This document shows, one piece after another, positions 10,977-56,519 of a stretch of 64,000 nucleotides of DNA. Positions within the stretch are counted from its first letter, which is position 1. Every line of letters starts with the position of its first letter. Position numbers and translations under genes: made by a program. The notes beneath the pieces are model-generated. The model had not been told where the DNA came from. It saw nothing but the letters and a program-made list of their open reading frames with translations, and made no database searches. Source of the stretch: Shewanella polaris (GTDB lineage: Bacteria; Pseudomonadota; Gammaproteobacteria; Enterobacterales; Shewanellaceae); the NCBI RefSeq assembly GCF_006385555.1, contig NZ_CP041036.1:1860001-1924000 (forward strand). The letters run 5' to 3'.

Positions 10977-11879
10977 TTGGATCAACTACGTGCAATGCGG
11001 TATTTCAGTAAAGTGGTCGAAACGGGCAGTTTTACCAAAGCGGCGAGTGTGTTTAATGTACCACCATCATCGCTGTCGAGACGCGTTGCTGATTTAGAAA
11101 AGAGTTTGGGGGCGACCTTGTTAAAGCGTTCGACCCGAATCGTTAAACTAACCGAAGTAGGGCAAATTTATTATAACGATGTACAGCAAATATTGAATCA
11201 ACTAGCGCAAAGCAATGAGACGGTTCGTAGTTACCAAACAACGCCAATGGGACGTTTGCGGATAAGTTCGATGGTGGGTTTTGGCGAAAAGATATTACTG
11301 CCATTGTTACATGAATTCAGTGAGTTATATCCTCAAATTGTTTTAGATGTCAGTTTAAGCGACGAGTTATCAACACTTGGACGTGACGATGTCGATATTG
11401 CTATTCGCGGTGGTTACGCGCCAAATGAACGCGTGTTAGCGATAAGATTAATGGACAATGGTTTCATTCCTGTGGCATCACCAAGTTACATAGAAAAACA
11501 CGGTATTCCAAATAATGCGATGGAATTAACGCAACATAATGGCCTGTATTTTAAAGCGCCAACAGGGCCAACGCCTTGGTTATGTCATATGAACGGTCAA
11601 TGGCATGATGTTTCAGGTCCCGCTGTGGCTATTTCAAATAATGGCCCTTGGTTGGCGAAAAAGGCTTGTGACGGTGAAGGCATTTTAATGTCAACTCGAT
11701 GGGCATTAGCGTCTTACCTTGAGTCTGGAAAATTGGTAGAACTTAAGTTTGAGCACGAGTTAGCTATCACTCAACATTCTGATATGGCCGTTTATTTGTT
11801 GTATCAAAAACAACGCTATTTAGTGCCAAAAGTAAAAGCGGCAGTCGATTTTTTAGTTGAAAGAATAAAAGTGAAATGA
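10977..11879 (+). CDS. LysR-family transcriptional regulator
   Basis: 300 residues. The winged HTH covers about 1-60, with GSFTKAASVFNVPPSSLSRR (17-36), followed by the LysR substrate-binding domain with VDIAIRGGYAPNERV. The start codon is TTG: GGAGAAG sits at 10966-10972, and the only nearby ATG (10964) runs into a stop after two codons. MDQLRAMRYF is a typical LysR start. It is divergent from the GST gene, and LysR proteins usually regulate the divergent neighbour, so I infer that it controls the GST and the MDR oxidoreductase. Confidence 0.9.
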   Translation: MDQLRAMRYFSKVVETGSFTKAASVFNVPPSSLSRRVADLEKSLGATLLKRSTRIVKLTEVGQIYYNDVQQILNQLAQSNETVRSYQTTPMGRLRISSMVGFGEKILLPLLHEFSELYPQIVLDVSLSDELSTLGRDDVDIAIRGGYAPNERVLAIRLMDNGFIPVASPSYIEKHGIPNNAMELTQHNGLYFKAPTGPTPWLCHMNGQWHDVSGPAVAISNNGPWLAKKACDGEGILMSTRWALASYLESGKLVELKFEHELAITQHSDMAVYLLYQKQRYLVPKVKAAVDFLVERIKVK

Positions 11880-12354
11880 GGGTTAAAGAAGCCAATAAAA
11901 CCCTACGGAAGAATTTGTGAAGCAACTAATCTCTCTATTGATTGAAATCACTTTACGGGTATTAACCATTTTTATAGTCATTTTAGCATTAGAAAAATAG
12001 GCATTAATGCTAATGCATTGATGTCATCAGTGGATCAGAGTCTTTAGCCATTAATCCCAATTTGGTGATTGCACTCATTCAATGAACTTGCACCTTATTG
12101 TCCTACAAATGGTCATTTATGCCCTGCATACAACTCTTTAGTGCGAACAGTCTTAAATAATATGATATAAAGTGATATTTCATCGAAGCTAAAACTCACC
12201 TTGTGTAGACGTGGCAATTTCAGCCTAACTATCCGCGTGATGAATGTGGTAATTCGATTTATTCATTTGATTAATGTTAGGCGTATTTTTATTCTGTCGT
12301 CCTATGTTGGGCGCACTCCCTTATCGTTTTTTAGCATCACCGGAGACAAAACTC
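11880..12354. other. Intergenic region upstream of aguA
   Basis: 475 bp, A/T-rich, without a gene I can support. Short frames here lack ribosome sites. It should contain the aguA promoter, but no single -35/-10 pair stands out. Confidence 0.4.
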
Positions 12355-13467
12355 ATGACAAACATGAATGTGGATGCCACGCAGTTAACGACTAAACCAT
12401 CCCAAGATGGTTTTTGCATGCCAGCCGAATGGGTCCCGCAGCAAGCTGTGTGGATGATTTGGCCATATCGTCCTGATAACTGGCGCTCTGCTGGGGCTTA
12501 TGCTCAGGCGACGTTTGCTAAAGTGGCAGATGCCATTGGTGCTGTTACCCCTGTTTATATGGGGGTACCCAAGGAGTTTTTGGCACAAGCCAAGACGGTC
12601 ATGCCTTCTCACGTTACCTTAGTCGAAATAGATAGCAATGATTGCTGGGCTCGCGATACCGGGCCTACAGTTGTGGTGAATGCCAAGGGCGAATGCCGTG
12701 GTGTTGATTGGGGCTTTAATGCCTGGGGTGGCAATAACGGTGGTTTGTACTTTCCATGGGATAAGGACGAACAAGTCGCACAACAAATGCTGACCCAGCA
12801 TGGATTTGAGCGTTATCAGGCTCCGCTTATTCTTGAAGGTGGTTCTATTCATGTCGACGGTGAAGGCACCTGCATGACCACGGCTGAATGTTTGCTTAAC
12901 AGTAACCGCAATCCAGATTTAACTCGTGAACAGATAGAAGCATTACTGGCTGAATATTTAAATGTTAAGCAGTTTATCTGGTTACCAGAAGGCGTGTACA
13001 TGGATGAGACTGACGGACATATTGATAATATATGCTGTTTTGCTCGCCCAGGCGAAGTGGTTTTACACTGGACTGATGATCAAACCGATCCGCAGTATCC
13101 TCGTTCAAAAGCCGCTTTGGATATTTTGCAAAATACTGTTGATGCACAGGGGCGTAAGTTAAAAGTCCATTTACTACCACAGCCTGGTCCTTTGTATTGC
13201 ACAGAAGAAGAAGCGCAAGGCGTAGTAGAGGGGACTGGTGTTCCACGCACGGCGGGCGAGCGTTTAGCGGGTTCTTATGCGAACTTTTTAATTACCAACA
13301 ATCGTATTGTTTTTCCGTTACTCGACCCCGCAACTGATGATATTGCAACGCAGAAATTGCAAGAGATTTTTCCCGAGTATGAGATTGTCGGTGTGCCTGC
13401 CCGTGAGATCCTATTAGGTGGTGGTAATATCCATTGTATTACCCAACAGATCCCCTCTGGAAAATAA
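12355..13467 (+). CDS. aguA: Agmatine deiminase
   Basis: 370 residues. It hydrolyses agmatine to N-carbamoylputrescine and ammonia in the cytoplasm. Family hallmarks are present: [10 protein letters not shown] early, [36 protein letters not shown] (acid and histidine of the guanidine pocket), and the C-terminal GGGNIHCIT with the nucleophile Cys361. The length matches the usual 365-370 residues. The ATG at 12355 is supported by CGGAGA nine bases upstream; a longer in-frame extension lacks a ribosome site. The next gene, 78 bp on, is an amidase, not the usual nitrilase-type aguB. Since the speB gene at 55429 is broken, this enzyme probably carries agmatine flux to putrescine. Confidence 0.95.
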
Positions 13468-13545
13468 GTAAACTTAAGCAGAACACAGTGACCATTTATG
13501 TCACTGTTGTTTCAACACAATTGGCTTTTAAGAAGAGGTCGTAAC

Positions 13546-15255
13546 ATGTTCGAAGTCACTGAGGTTCCCATTGCCGAGCTGCGTACAGCTCTCGAATCCG
13601 GTCGCACCACAGCAGTTGAACTGGTGAAGTCTTATCTAACACGGATTGATGCTTACGACGGCCCAGCGACACAGACCAAGCTGAATGCGCTAGTGGTTCG
13701 CAACCCAGATGCGTTAAAGGAAGCGGAAGCTTCTGATGCACGCCGAGCTCGTGGTGAAACACTGAGTCCACTGGACGGTGTTCCCTATACAGTCAAAGAC
13801 AGCTACCTAGTTAAGGGGCTTACTGCGGCTTCTGGTAGCCCAGCGTTTAAGGACTTGGTTGCTCAATACGATGCCTTTGCCGTCGAACGTCTGCGCGATG
13901 CAGGTGCTATTTGTTTGGGTAAAACCAATATGCCACCTATGGCTAATGGTGGTATGCAGCGCGGTCACTACGGTCGCGCCGAAAGCCCATACAATGCTAA
14001 TTATCTTACCGCTCCGTTCGCCTCTGGTTCTTCAAATGGTGCAGGTACTGGTACCGCTGCAAGTTATTCTGCTTTTGGTCTAGCTGAAGAGACATGGTCG
14101 AGCGGTCGTGGGCCAGCATCTAACAACGGTTTGTGTGCTTATACTCCATCACGTGGGGTGATTTCTGTGCGTGGTAACTGGCCGTTGACACCGACTATGG
14201 ATGTTGTGGTGCCTTATACTCGTACTATGGCAGATATGCTTGAAGTGCTGGACGTTATCGTTGCAGACGACCCTATTACTCGTGGTGATTTATGGCGTCT
14301 ACAACCTTGGGTTGAAATCCCAAAAGCATCAACCGTCCGTCCAAAATCTTATCTGGATCTTGCTGCTCAAGCCGACACGCTTAAAGGTAAGCGTTTTGGC
14401 GTACCGCGCATGTACATCAATAAAGATGAATTGGCTGGCACCAGCGAAAACCCTGGCATTGGCGGCCCGACTGGCCAGCGCATCCATACTCGTGCGTCTG
14501 TTATCGATTTATGGGAAGCTGCACGCTCAGCGCTGGAATCTGCCGGAGCTGAAGTCATTGAAGTGGACTTTCCGCTGGTTTCTAACTGTGAAGGTGATCG
14601 CCCTGGTGCGCCGACTGTGTTCAATCGTGGCATGGTCACCCCTGAGTTTCTCGACGATGAGCTATGGGCGCTATCGGGTTGGGCTTTAGATGAATTCTTG
14701 CGTGCTAATAATGATCCTAAATTGAACAAACTGGAAGACGTCAACGGCCATTTGATTTTCCCACATGATCTTGGCACCTTGCCTAACCGTGAGGGTGACC
14801 TCGCCGCAGGCATGGATGAATACGTCAACATGGCCAAAAGAGGCCTTAAGTCGTATAACCAAATCGACAGCATACCGGATGGGCTGCGTGGCTTAGAGAA
14901 GACACGCAAGTTGGATCTTGAAGATTGGATGGACGAACTCAAACTTGATGCTGTGTTGTTCCCAACTATGGCTGATGTAGGCCCAGCAGATGCACAGGTT
15001 AATCCAGCTTCTGCGGACATTGCGTGGAGTAATGGTGTGTGGGTTGCCAACGGTAACCTTGCTATTCGCCACTTAGGTGTACCGACAGTGACTGTGCCAA
15101 TGGGCGTAATGGCCGACATTGGCATGCCAGTAGGTTTGACTTTTGCAGGTCGTGCTTATGATGACAATGATTTGCTTCGTTTTGCGGGGGCATTTGAGGC
15201 GACTGGCAGCAAGCGCGTTATTCCTCCACGTACGCCAGTGCTAAGCAATAAGTAA
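13546..15255 (+). CDS. Amidase-signature hydrolase, possible N-carbamoylputrescine amidase substitute
   Basis: 569 residues of the amidase-signature family. The catalytic triad can be placed: Lys84 (YTVKDSY), cis-Ser162 (FASGSSNG) and nucleophile Ser186 (ETWSSGRGPAS). The 24-residue gap between the serines equals that of mammalian FAAH. The loop around Ser186 departs from the common DTGGSIR form. The ATG at 13546 has AAGAGG seven bases before it; the 16-residue longer version has no such site. There is no signal peptide. It follows aguA on the same strand and ends at a strong terminator, so the two form a likely operon. The context suggests that it hydrolyses N-carbamoylputrescine or a related amide; this is inference only, because family members act on many amides. 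Confidence 0.85.
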   Translation: MFEVTEVPIAELRTALESGRTTAVELVKSYLTRIDAYDGPATQTKLNALVVRNPDALKEAEASDARRARGETLSPLDGVPYTVKDSYLVKGLTAASGSPAFKDLVAQYDAFAVERLRDAGAICLGKTNMPPMANGGMQRGHYGRAESPYNANYLTAPFASGSSNGAGTGTAASYSAFGLAEETWSSGRGPASNNGLCAYTPSRGVISVRGNWPLTPTMDVVVPYTRTMADMLEVLDVIVADDPITRGDLWRLQPWVEIPKASTVRPKSYLDLAAQADTLKGKRFGVPRMYINKDELAGTSENPGIGGPTGQRIHTRASVIDLWEAARSALESAGAEVIEVDFPLVSNCEGDRPGAPTVFNRGMVTPEFLDDELWALSGWALDEFLRANNDPKLNKLEDVNGHLIFPHDLGTLPNREGDLAAGMDEYVNMAKRGLKSYNQIDSIPDGLRGLEKTRKLDLEDWMDELKLDAVLFPTMADVGPADAQVNPASADIAWSNGVWVANGNLAIRHLGVPTVTVPMGVMADIGMPVGLTFAGRAYDDNDLLRFAGAFEATGSKRVIPPRTPVLSNK

Positions 15256-52310: not shown

Positions 52311-54221
52311 ATGTCTGATTGGTCTATCGAAGATGCTCGCTCGGGTTATAACGTGACTCACTGGAGCCAAGGTTTTTATGGTATTCGTGAAGATGGTGAA
52401 GTGACAGTGTCACCTAACCCACAAAATCCAGATCATAAAGTTGGCTTAAATGAATTAGCCAAAAGTATGGTTGAAGCAGGTGTTTCGTTACCGGTATTAG
52501 TCCGTTTCCCGCAAATCTTACACCATAGAGTGGAAAGTTTATGCGAAGCATTTAATGATGCAATTAAGAAGTACGATTATCAAAATGATTACTTGCTGGT
52601 TTACCCGATTAAAGTAAACCAACAAAAAACGGTGGTTGAAGAAATTTTAGCCAGCCAAAAATCGAAAGAAGTAAAACAGTTAGGACTTGAAGCTGGCAGT
52701 AAGCCAGAATTAATGGCTGTACTTGCGATGGCACAAAAAGCCAGCTCAGTAATTGTATGTAACGGTTACAAAGATAAAGAATATATTCGCTTAGCATTAA
52801 TTGGCGAAAAGCTTGGCCATAAGGTTTATATCGTTCTGGAAAAAATGTCAGAACTAAAAATGGTATTAGCTGAAGCTAAAAATCTCGGTATCACACCACG
52901 TTTAGGTTTACGTGTACGTTTGGCTTTCCAAGGCAAAGGTAAGTGGCAAGCCAGTGGTGGCGAAAAGTCTAAGTTTGGCCTGTCTGCTGCACAAGTATTG
53001 AAAGTGGTTGCCGAACTGAAAAGCGTTAATATGCTTGATTCTTTACAGTTATCACATTTTCACTTAGGTTCGCAAATTGCCAATATCCGCGACATTCGCC
53101 AAGGTGTGAGTGAGGCTGGTCGTTTTTACTGTGAATTACGCCAACTTGGTGCCAGCATTGATTGTTTCGATGTCGGCGGCGGGTTAGCGGTTGACTACGA
53201 TGGTACCCGAAGCCAAAGCAATAACTCAATGAACTATGGCTTGAATGAGTATGCCAACAATATCGTCAATGTATTAACGGATTTATGTAATGAATACGAG
53301 CAACCAATGCCTCGTATTATTTCAGAATCTGGTCGTCATTTAACCGCGCACCATGCGGTGTTGATTACTGATGTGATTGGAACTGAAACCTATATACCTG
53401 AAGAGATTAAGCAACCAAATGAAGACTCACCACAATTGCTTCATAACATGTGGCAATCTTGGTTAGAAATCTGCAGTGGTTCTGATCAGCGTGCAATCAT
53501 TGAAATTTATCATGACAGTCAGAGTGATATTTCTGAAGCTCACTCTCTGTTTGCCGTGGGCCAATTGAGTTTAGCGGATCGCGCTTGGGCCGAGCAAACT
53601 AACTTACGTGTTTGCCATGAAGTGAAGGGGTTATTAAGTAACAATAACCGTTATCATCGCCCAGTGATCGATGAATTAAATGAAAAGTTAGCCGATAAGT
53701 TTTTCGTTAACTTCTCATTATTCCAATCATTACCGGATGCATGGGGTATTGATCAAGTGTTCCCAGTGTTGCCGTTATCGGGTTTAGATAAGGCACCAGA
53801 GAGGCGTGCGGTTATGTTAGATATTACCTGTGACTCTGACGGTATTGTTGATCAATATGTTGATGGTCAAGGCATCGAAACTACCTTGCCAGTGCCAGCA
53901 TGGAGCGCAGACAGCCCATATTTGATTGGTTTCTTCATGGTGGGTGCATACCAAGAAATTTTGGGCGATATGCATAACTTGTTTGGTGATACCAACTCTG
54001 CGGTTGTGCGTATTGATGAGCGGGGATTAAGCCAGATCGAATCTGTTTTAGAAGGCGATACAGTAGCTGACGTTTTACGTTATGTAAACTTAGATGCGGT
54101 TGACTTTATGCGCACATATGAAGAGCTTGTGAATCAACATATTGTTGAAGAAGAGCGTGCCAGCATCCTAGAAGAGTTACAGTTAGGTCTTAAGGGTTAC
54201 ACTTACTTAGAAGATTTTTAA
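52311..54221 (+). CDS. speA: Biosynthetic arginine decarboxylase
   Basis: 636 residues. A PLP enzyme that converts arginine to agmatine. Seen: [20 protein letters not shown] at the N terminus, the PLP lysine in [48 protein letters not shown] (phosphate-binding glycines) and the C-terminal [16 protein letters not shown] with the active-site Cys. I chose the ATG at 52311; an eight-residue longer version has no better site. It is followed by speD and a broken speB, so the natural agmatinase partner is lost; see aguA at 12355. Confidence 0.96.
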
Positions 54222-54467: not shown

Positions 54468-55397
54468 ATGTTTTTTGAAGGTTCAGAAAAAAAATTAGAG
54501 ATTATTGTTAATGCATCCGCGCCTAAATTACGATCTTTAGATCAAGCATTTTGGCTGGAGCTTGTTGCTGCCTCAAATGCAGATATTTTATCTAGTATAA
54601 GTAATGAATATTGTGATGCTTATTTACTGAGTGAATCGAGTTTATTTGTATGGGATGATCATATCGTTATGCTCACTTGTGGGGCTAGCACCTTGGTCGA
54701 ATCGGCTTGTTACTGCATTGAAAGTCTAGGTGAGCAAGCTATTGCGTATGTGTGTTATCAACGCAAAAATGAATATTATGCCCATTTACAAGCAAGTTCT
54801 TTTGGTGATGATGTACTTAGGTTAAGGCATTTTATCGCCGGACAAGCCTATCGAATGGGTCATTTAGATAGCCATCATCACTATATTTTTACCACCGATA
54901 AAAACTATCAAGCCAGCCAGCTCGATACCACCAATGAACTGCTGATGTATCATATTTCTGGTACGGTAGCGGACTATTTACGTGGCGATCAACAATCAAT
55001 TGTTCAGATTAGTCAGATGCTACAGCTGAACCAATTATTTGATGGTTTTAGTATTGATCAGCATTTATTCAGTCCGTTAGGTTATTCGATCAACGGTATT
55101 CGTGGTTCTGAATATTTTACAATACACATTACACCCCAAGAAAACAGTTCTTATGTGAGTGTTGAAACTAACATTGATATGAACTCAACTCAGGTTAATA
55201 TTTTTGCTGAACTGGTAACATTATTGCAGCCTAACAGCTGCGACCTTATTGGCTTTAATAGTAATATTGCCGATAAGCCCTTTTTGAATTACTTGTGTTT
55301 AAGCCATTGCGCGATGACAATTAAACAAGGCTACAACATACATTTCAGCCATTATCAGCAAGATAGCTTAGAAGTACTAATACCCACATTATTGTAA
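54468..55397 (+). CDS. speD: S-adenosylmethionine decarboxylase, eukaryotic-type proenzyme
   Basis: 309 residues, resembling human/yeast AdoMetDC rather than the small bacterial SpeD. It provides the aminopropyl donor for spermidine. Matches: FFEGSEKKLEI (Glu4 and Glu7, like human Glu8/Glu11), AYLLSESSLFVW with the self-cleavage site Glu56-Ser57 that forms the pyruvoyl group, CGAST with Cys71 (human Cys82), FSPLGYSINGI with Ser207, and FTIHITPQENSSYVSVETN with His220 (human Ser229/His243). All processing and catalytic residues are therefore present. It is between speA and a broken speB. Confidence 0.95.
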   Translation: MFFEGSEKKLEIIVNASAPKLRSLDQAFWLELVAASNADILSSISNEYCDAYLLSESSLFVWDDHIVMLTCGASTLVESACYCIESLGEQAIAYVCYQRKNEYYAHLQASSFGDDVLRLRHFIAGQAYRMGHLDSHHHYIFTTDKNYQASQLDTTNELLMYHISGTVADYLRGDQQSIVQISQMLQLNQLFDGFSIDQHLFSPLGYSINGIRGSEYFTIHITPQENSSYVSVETNIDMNSTQVNIFAELVTLLQPNSCDLIGFNSNIADKPFLNYLCLSHCAMTIKQGYNIHFSHYQQDSLEVLIPTLL

Positions 55398-55428: not shown

Positions 55429-55778
55429 ATGACGACCTGCGCAGAAAAAGCTGATTATTCGCTTTATTCAAACGCATTTGGCTGTTTACGCCAATAATTT
55501 AATTTTAAACCATAGAATCTGACGCAGATGTTGTGGTCGTTGTTTTACCTTTTGACATGGCAACATCAGGTTGTTCTGGTGGTCGAATGATGGTTCAACC
55601 AGTGATAAAACGATGAAAAATCATTCGTGGATGACCTGGGTTGAATATTGTGGGTATGAATGTGGTTGAAGTTACCCCAGCTTATAACTCAGCTAATATT
55701 ACTGCATTCGCAGAGGCCACTCTGGGACTTGAAATGCTGCACGTTTGGGTAGAAGGTAAAGGCTTAATTAAAAAGTGA
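55429..55778 (+). pseudogene. speB: Agmatinase, internally deleted and frameshifted
   Basis: The ATG at 55429 starts MTTCAEKADYSLYSNAFGCL, followed by stops; then 55515-55585 reads SDADVVVVVLPFDMATSGCS GGR in another frame. This equals the SpeB N terminus (E. coli has SNAFGFLRL and SDADWVITGVPFDMATSG). The text jumps at about 55585 straight to TSDKTMK, and after a frameshift near 55612 to [20 protein letters not shown], then [14 protein letters not shown], the SpeB C terminus. About 190 residues with all manganese ligands are missing. GGTGG occurs at the joint and may have been the deletion repeat. Intact SpeB is about 306 residues. Confidence 0.92.
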
Positions 55779-55802: not shown

Positions 55803-55830
55803 AAGCCAACCTGTAGACGTTGGCTTTTTT
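55803..55830 (+). terminator. Rho-independent terminator after the speB remnant
   Basis: AAGCCAAC pairs with GTTGGCTT across eight bases and is followed by six T. It is probably the original spe operon terminator. Confidence 0.9.
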
Positions 55831-55880: not shown

Positions 55881-56519
55881 ATGAGTGATTTAAGTGATAT
55901 TCGCCGTGAATATAGCCAAGGTGGATTGAGGCGTAGTGATTTACCCGTCAATCCAATGGATTTATTTGAAAAGTGGATGCTACAAGCCAAAGACGCTGAA
56001 TTAACTGACCCAACTGCAATGTGTGTGGCGACGGTTGATGAAGATGGTCAGCCATTTCAGCGTATTGTGTTACTCAAAAAATTTGATGATAACGGTTTTG
56101 TGTTTTTTACTAATTTAGAAAGTCGCAAAGCAAAACAGATAGCTATTAACAGCAAAATTAGTTTATTGTTTCCTTGGCATCCACTTGAGCGCCAAGTGGC
56201 TGTACTTGGCCAGGCTGAGCCATTGTCTATGTTAGATGTAGCAAAATATTTTATGTCCAGACCCAAAGACAGTCAAATTGCGGCATGGGTATCTAAACAA
56301 TCCAGTAAAATTTCAGCCAGACAAGCCCTAGAAGGGAAGTTTGCCGAAATGAAAGCCAAGTTCGCCCAAGGTGATGTGCCATTACCGAAATTTTGGGGGG
56401 GATATTTGGTGCGTCCAACCAGTATTGAGTTTTGGCAAGGCGGTGAACATCGGTTACATGACCGATTTATTTACACTAAAAATGATGCTGATTGGAATAT
56501 AGATCGGTTGGCACCTTAA
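55881..56519 (+). CDS. pdxH: Pyridoxamine 5'-phosphate oxidase
   Basis: 212 residues. FMN enzyme that oxidises pyridoxine/pyridoxamine phosphate to PLP. Seen: [20 protein letters not shown] at the N terminus, [37 protein letters not shown] and the C-terminal [15 protein letters not shown] with the PLP-contacting Arg/His. Full length. AAGGAAC is upstream. The stop overlaps the next gene (TAATG). Confidence 0.95.

Follow-up and report, generated by a model that had tools for sequence, protein, structure and literature searches.

A decayed agmatinase gene at its native site in Shewanella polaris and the AguA-AguY pair that very probably displaced it

RESULTS

Remains of speB between speD and pdxH

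The window analysed here is a stretch of 64,000 nucleotides from Shewanella polaris (contig NZ_CP041036.1, positions 1,860,001 to 1,924,000 of the forward strand). Towards its end intact speA and speD are followed by the remains of speB, the agmatinase gene, and by pdxH:

52311..54221, + strand: speA, biosynthetic arginine decarboxylase, 636 aa, intact (TIGR01273 867 bits, cut-off 624; NF003763 899 bits, cut-off 369)
54468..55397, + strand: speD, eukaryotic-type (class 2) S-adenosylmethionine decarboxylase, 309 aa, intact (PF01536 189.7 bits)
55429..55512, + strand: speB relic, N-terminal block, codons 1-28 with TAA at codon 23
55515..55589, + strand: speB relic, PFDMATSG block, in a shifted frame downstream of a 1-bp deletion
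55590..55778, + strand: speB relic, C-terminal block, 3′ of a 583-bp deletion and carrying a second stop as well as a 1-bp insertion (PF00491 23.1 bits)
55805..55830, + strand: terminator-like hairpin and T-run 3′ of the relic, read by eye
55881..56519, + strand: pdxH, downstream neighbour

The relic runs from an ATG at 55429 to a last stop, TGA, at 55776-55778. With 19 full-length intact SpeB proteins as tblastn queries, two blocks in different frames were recovered, 55429-55512, which corresponds to SpeB residues 1-28 (82%, 49.7 bits, E 3e-18), and 55617-55775, which corresponds to residues 258-310 (77%, 86.3 bits, E 2e-25); these E-values are apparently summed over linked pieces, and the bit scores are the safer figures. 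When the 486-bp gap was shuffled 60 times by mononucleotide, no tblastn score exceeded 22.3 bits. Compared with intact speB, the relic carries TAA at codon 23, the 1-bp deletion, the 583-bp deletion (about 194 codons), the 1-bp insertion and a stop at codon 263, with one -1 and one +1 change of frame and both stops in register. The motifs GGDH, DAHTD and DIDCLDP, which we take to form the binuclear Mn site of SpeB, are present in an intact SpeB (L003) and in the alignment all fall within the deleted stretch. A functional SpeB would have an open frame of about 310 codons, which is absent here; what the syntenic site does show is homology to intact speB. The interval 55429-55778 is a dead speB, a pseudogene without the metal site.

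A sequence-only reading of this DNA had described a deleted and frameshifted speB beside intact speA and speD, with the PFDMATSG block in a shifted frame, a C-terminus reached through a further frameshift and about 190 residues lost together with the metal site; its coordinates were exact, and the alignment with intact Shewanella speB, homologous in both blocks, agrees with it on every one of these points. Its proposal that GGTGG at the joint marks a short-repeat deletion does not fit the alignment: in the relic GGTGG and about 8 further bases of the left flank precede the right flank, so the crossover was not there, and the overlap at the joint, as read by eye, is 2-3 bases. A search for another agmatinase had also been suggested. 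Across the single contig of 4,648,537 bases that makes up the genome, the PF00491 profile matched the relic and nothing else at E≤0.001, which speaks against a second, hidden agmatinase of this family.

The speA-speD-speB-pdxH clusters of S. morhuae and S. gaetbuli have the same gene order at the same site, with a full-length speB in place of the relic. The name pdxH follows from the gene's position in the cluster, which is that seen in relatives with intact speB, and from PMC12283126; by tblastn all 38 named Shewanella loci that were taken from a set of 80 have it downstream of speD. The hairpin stem is, by eye, conserved in four related genomes (G031, G071, G089 and G122) and changed by a single base in G051, and speA-speD transcripts may include the relic towards their 3′ end. 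Over five genome pairs, differences at first and second codon positions are 0.06-0.08 in speD versus 0.13-0.24 in the relic; in the six genomes compared, the speD beside the relic is under constraint.

An agmatine deiminase gene and its amidase neighbour in the same window

About 40,000 bases from the relic, the window contains the following genes:

10977..11879, + strand: LysR-type regulator upstream of aguA (PF00126, PF03466)
12274..13467, + strand: aguA, agmatine deiminase (TIGR03380 576 bits, cut-off 382; PF04371 404 bits)
13498..15255, + strand: aguY, amidase-signature protein, probable N-carbamoylputrescine amidohydrolase (NF005127/PRK06565 'amidase' 1151.8 bits, cut-off 575; PF01425)

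The aguA assignment rests on a score above the TIGR03380 equivalog cut-off; the true start may lie inside the open reading frame given, and a genome search with PF04371 returned this one match. The next frame begins 30 bp past that of aguA. Family NF005127 alone is insufficient to tell AguY from Tse8, a descendant of AguY with 85% identity to it (PMC12283126), and position beside aguA is what separates the two. The protein encoded at 13498-15255 is probably AguY, judging from its place adjoining aguA, its family, its size in the range of about 570-585 aa, and its identity of 92.5-92.6% to the aguA-adjacent proteins of four relatives (G054, G113, G083 and G082); to the characterised AguY of S. 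oneidensis (WP_011071177) it is likened by its place after aguA and by similar size.

In S. oneidensis the purified AguY, an amidase encoded beside aguA, converts N-carbamoylputrescine to putrescine (Li et al. 2025, PMC12283126). The same paper describes that species as having arginine decarboxylase and as lacking agmatinase and AguB; deletion of aguA-aguY depletes putrebactin, although according to its authors the loss of aguA alone could suffice. S. polaris resembles S. oneidensis in having arginine decarboxylase and adjacent aguA-aguY, and in having neither agmatinase nor a canonical AguB. As in the canonical AguA-AguB route, agmatine would pass through N-carbamoylputrescine to putrescine; there the second enzyme is the nitrilase-type AguB, which we found in speB-less and speB-bearing Shewanella (see below) and not here, the best TIGR03381 score in the genome being 83.8 bits against a cut-off of 410. 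The sequence-only reading had inferred that, with speA still making agmatine, the pathway must have been rewired, and had left the manner open. The inference stands, with aguA and the aguY-type amidase at 12274-15255 of the same window; the matter was less open than supposed, the AguA-AguY route having been characterised in S. oneidensis.

The genome has no OKR-type ornithine decarboxylase over cut-off. An alanine-racemase-fold protein (L413, G000:C1:4043944-4044645) has lysine/ornithine decarboxylases as its best PDB matches and scores over no NCBIfam cut-off; this decarboxylase-like protein could be a direct source of putrescine by the ornithine route.

SpeB and AguA across the genus

Among 129 Shewanella genomes, full-length SpeB (taken as a PF00491 score of at least 292 bits) was found in 77 and AguA in 65, two of these split; 62 genomes have SpeB only, 15 have both, 50 have AguA only and two have neither. 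AguA is thus present in 50 of the 52 genomes without SpeB, and the remaining two (G093 and G111) are exactly those without the SpeA domain PF17810. That domain occurs in all 127 genomes with SpeB or AguA; in the 129 genomes searched it was never seen without one of them. For the complementarity of SpeB and AguA, Fisher's test gives p 1e-19, a value that ignores shared ancestry. Genome G111 is 52% complete. G093 is rated 100% complete and has no SpeA domain, full-length SpeB, AguA or SpeD match, a partial strong SpeE being all that was seen.

Some PF00491 match exists in 124 of the 129 genomes; the weaker ones, of about 59-73 bits and, among the matches listed, mostly in proteins of about 340-380 aa, were not counted, and we take them to be formiminoglutamase-like. 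Extra PF00491 copies of 211 to 316 bits occur in G055, G073, G091, G094 and G110, genomes that were counted anyway. Matches to PF04371 below 125 bits (G072, G073, G114, G118 and G120) were left out of the AguA count.

The second enzyme varies. Among the 50 AguA-only genomes 45 have AguY (in pieces in G004, G067 and G122) and five have AguB (partial in G025), while the 15 genomes with both SpeB and AguA divide into four with AguY, nine with AguB and two with neither. The split AguY, with a TAG stop in G004 and overlapping frames in G122, reflects either decay or assembly error. Two genomes, G092 and G099, have SpeB and a shorter AguA-type match (984 bp), with no AguY or AguB over cut-off.

Relics of speB in related genomes

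The stretch after speD was compared with intact SpeB in 49 of the 50 AguA-only genomes, the other one, G097, having no SpeD match. Remnants of speB were detected with E<1e-8 at 10 of the 49 loci (the window included) and weakly at four; the other 35 showed nothing at E≤0.01. The gene pdxH follows speD within 2.5 kb in 45 of the 49 gaps; in G021, G023, G065 and G126, all among the 35, it is not within 2.5 kb and that whole stretch was searched.

The five genomes nearest to S. polaris by SpeD (86-90%), G031 (taken as S. frigidimarina KCTC 23109), G071, G051, G089 and G122, all have speB relics, whose deletions and shifts differ from those in the window and among themselves. The state of decay is uneven, as seen from the invariant codons kept out of those covered: 121 of 131 in G071, 68 of 84 in S. 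polaris (G000), 71 of 98 in G031, 92 of 144 in G051, 98 of 132 in G089 and 48 of 79 in G122; the G051 relic has eight in-register stops. The clade defined by PheT (93-96%) also includes G097, G006, G079, G121, G013, G045, G060 and G067, with weak remnants in G006, G079 and G121 and none in G013, G045, G060 and G067.

No single inactivating lesion shared by the six relics was seen. The PheT tree makes sisters of G071 and G051 (0.94), and their relics have decayed unequally, so their speB genes were probably inactivated at different times; the sister relation rests on PheT, G051 standing apart from G071 in the AguA tree. One stretch of about 180 bp is missing from all six relics, and a nested shared deletion is possible.

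Losses of speB and movement of aguA

Parsimony on a species tree built from one gene, PheT, and rooted on G011, G025, G030, G053 and G127, which lack SpeB and stand outside the Dollo counts, gave six Dollo losses of speB when S. morhuae and its sister are left out and 12 when both are included, and eight Fitch changes. Genomes G111 (for its completeness) and G093 (for its missing SpeA domain) were omitted from these counts, and G084 is absent from the tree, having no PheT match. The range of 6 to 12 arises because both retention and regain of speB are possible in S. morhuae (G061) and its sister G036. Regain by transfer is hinted at by the SpeB DNA tree, which covers 37 of the 77 genomes; a similar affinity of the S. 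hafniensis/oncorhynchi/profunda/morhuae group appears in SpeD (0.92), not in SpeA or PdxH, and the SpeB protein tree is weak at the S. morhuae group (0.67). On this one-gene tree the exchange of speB for AguA seems to have been repeated within the genus.

Read by eye, the AguA tree (55 of the 65 genomes) mixes the frigidimarina clade with the aestuarii/holmiensis/subflava clade (G003, G042 and G119, with G035, G105 and G004), and the mixed sequences nest beside sequences like those of S. hafniensis and S. morhuae, an arrangement at odds with the PheT tree. Because of this conflict, we read the aguA-aguY module as probably moving horizontally within the genus.

SpeD without a strong SpeE

The SpeD of the window reaches 126 bits against TIGR00535, short of the equivalog cut-off of 233. 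It matches PDB chain 1msv, an S-adenosylmethionine decarboxylase proenzyme that we take to be the human one, with E 4e-27, and its residues 2-256 align with AdoMet decarboxylases of known structure, including the self-cleavage region, where the residue roles are those that we assume for such enzymes. Matches of this eukaryotic type occur in 126 of the 129 Shewanella genomes, in pieces or with stops in G015, G025, G067, G104, G115 and G123. Relatives of class-2 SpeD were also seen in Ferrimonas, Grimontia, Marinomonas, Endozoicomonas, Colwellia and some Bdellovibrio and Myxococcales contigs.

In 99 of the 126 SpeD genomes, S. polaris included, nothing scored above 200 bits as a spermidine synthase (PF01564). 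A strong SpeE match lies near speA in 26 genomes, to which G091 (206 bits) and G093 (179 bits, partial, no SpeD) may be added. Some PF01564 match exists in all genomes except G111; where none is strong, the top-scoring protein is usually one of about 570-625 aa (587 aa here) and might stand in for SpeE. In class-1 SpeD the same anomaly was the mark of proteins that had become ornithine or arginine decarboxylases (PMC10407285). It is conceivable, although we hold the idea tentatively, that SpeD has taken on a new role, decarboxylating a different substrate or supplying dcAdoMet for a product other than spermidine, and that the speA-speD-(speB) cluster serves a new end. The retention of SpeD without a strong SpeE is a less ordinary feature than the relic beside it.

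DISCUSSION

We consider it very likely that speB was lost through non-orthologous gene displacement followed by decay. The ancestral cluster would have been speA-speD-speB-pdxH, with SpeB converting agmatine directly to putrescine and urea. The lineage would then have gained the aguA-aguY pair, probably mobile among species, AguA turning agmatine into N-carbamoylputrescine and AguY turning that into putrescine. With two routes in one cell speB would have become redundant, acquired the stop, the frameshifts and the 583-bp deletion, and would be still eroding; speA would remain useful because AguA-AguY takes over the agmatine. We infer that aguA-aguY arrived first and made speB dispensable, and that the pair carries the flux in this strain of S. 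polaris. Observations that count against the displacement reading include the 15 genomes that keep both SpeB and AguA and the AguY in pieces in three genomes that lack speB (G004, G067 and G122).

Other explanations of the relic were weighed against the same data. Putrescine might come from ornithine by way of the alanine-racemase-fold decarboxylase, which would have let speB go and left AguA-AguY to catabolise imported agmatine only. The lysine/ornithine decarboxylase-like frame in the genome is in line with this account, as is the catabolic role that PMC12283126 proposes for AguA-AguY or AguA-AguB when they coexist with SpeB, and speF was essential for putrescine in S. oneidensis in a study cited in PMC8891985. 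The latter paper nevertheless sides with the SpeA-Agu route as the main source of putrescine in S. oneidensis, its ornithine decarboxylases mainly giving cadaverine. Moreover, speA is intact here, the SpeA domain accompanies SpeB or AguA throughout the 127 genomes, and it is with AguA that SpeB is complementary; we regard the ornithine account as improbable.

Much less probable still is that the relic is retained for a separate function, such as that of a small RNA or a regulatory 3′ UTR belonging to the speA-speD transcript. It does sit between speD and a terminator-like hairpin, with some sequence kept; yet the parts kept vary among relatives, the relic has diverged at first and second positions far more than the adjoining speD, and 35 of the 49 loci have no detectable remnant. 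That speB is really intact and was broken by sequencing or assembly error, which the sequence-only reading had named as a possible refutation, has a negligible chance, given a 583-bp deletion plus several separate lesions and the distinct speB lesions seen in each of the five genomes nearest by SpeD.

Variation of Shewanella species in SpeB, AguB and AguY content is already reported in PMC12283126. The account given there is one of presence and absence among species, and a term search of its main text does not find the word 'pseudogene'; here, a recognisable speB relic lies at the native site. Our searches of the open-access literature showed no report of a speB relic in Shewanella. The route and the patchwork were known; the part for which those searches gave no precedent is the series of relics, together with the rule that speA always occurs with SpeB or AguA. 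If displacement is the right reading, a metabolic gene replacement has been caught in the act in this small clade, where speB is seen at several stages of decay with the replacing pair present, and the patchwork already in print becomes a series of natural trials.
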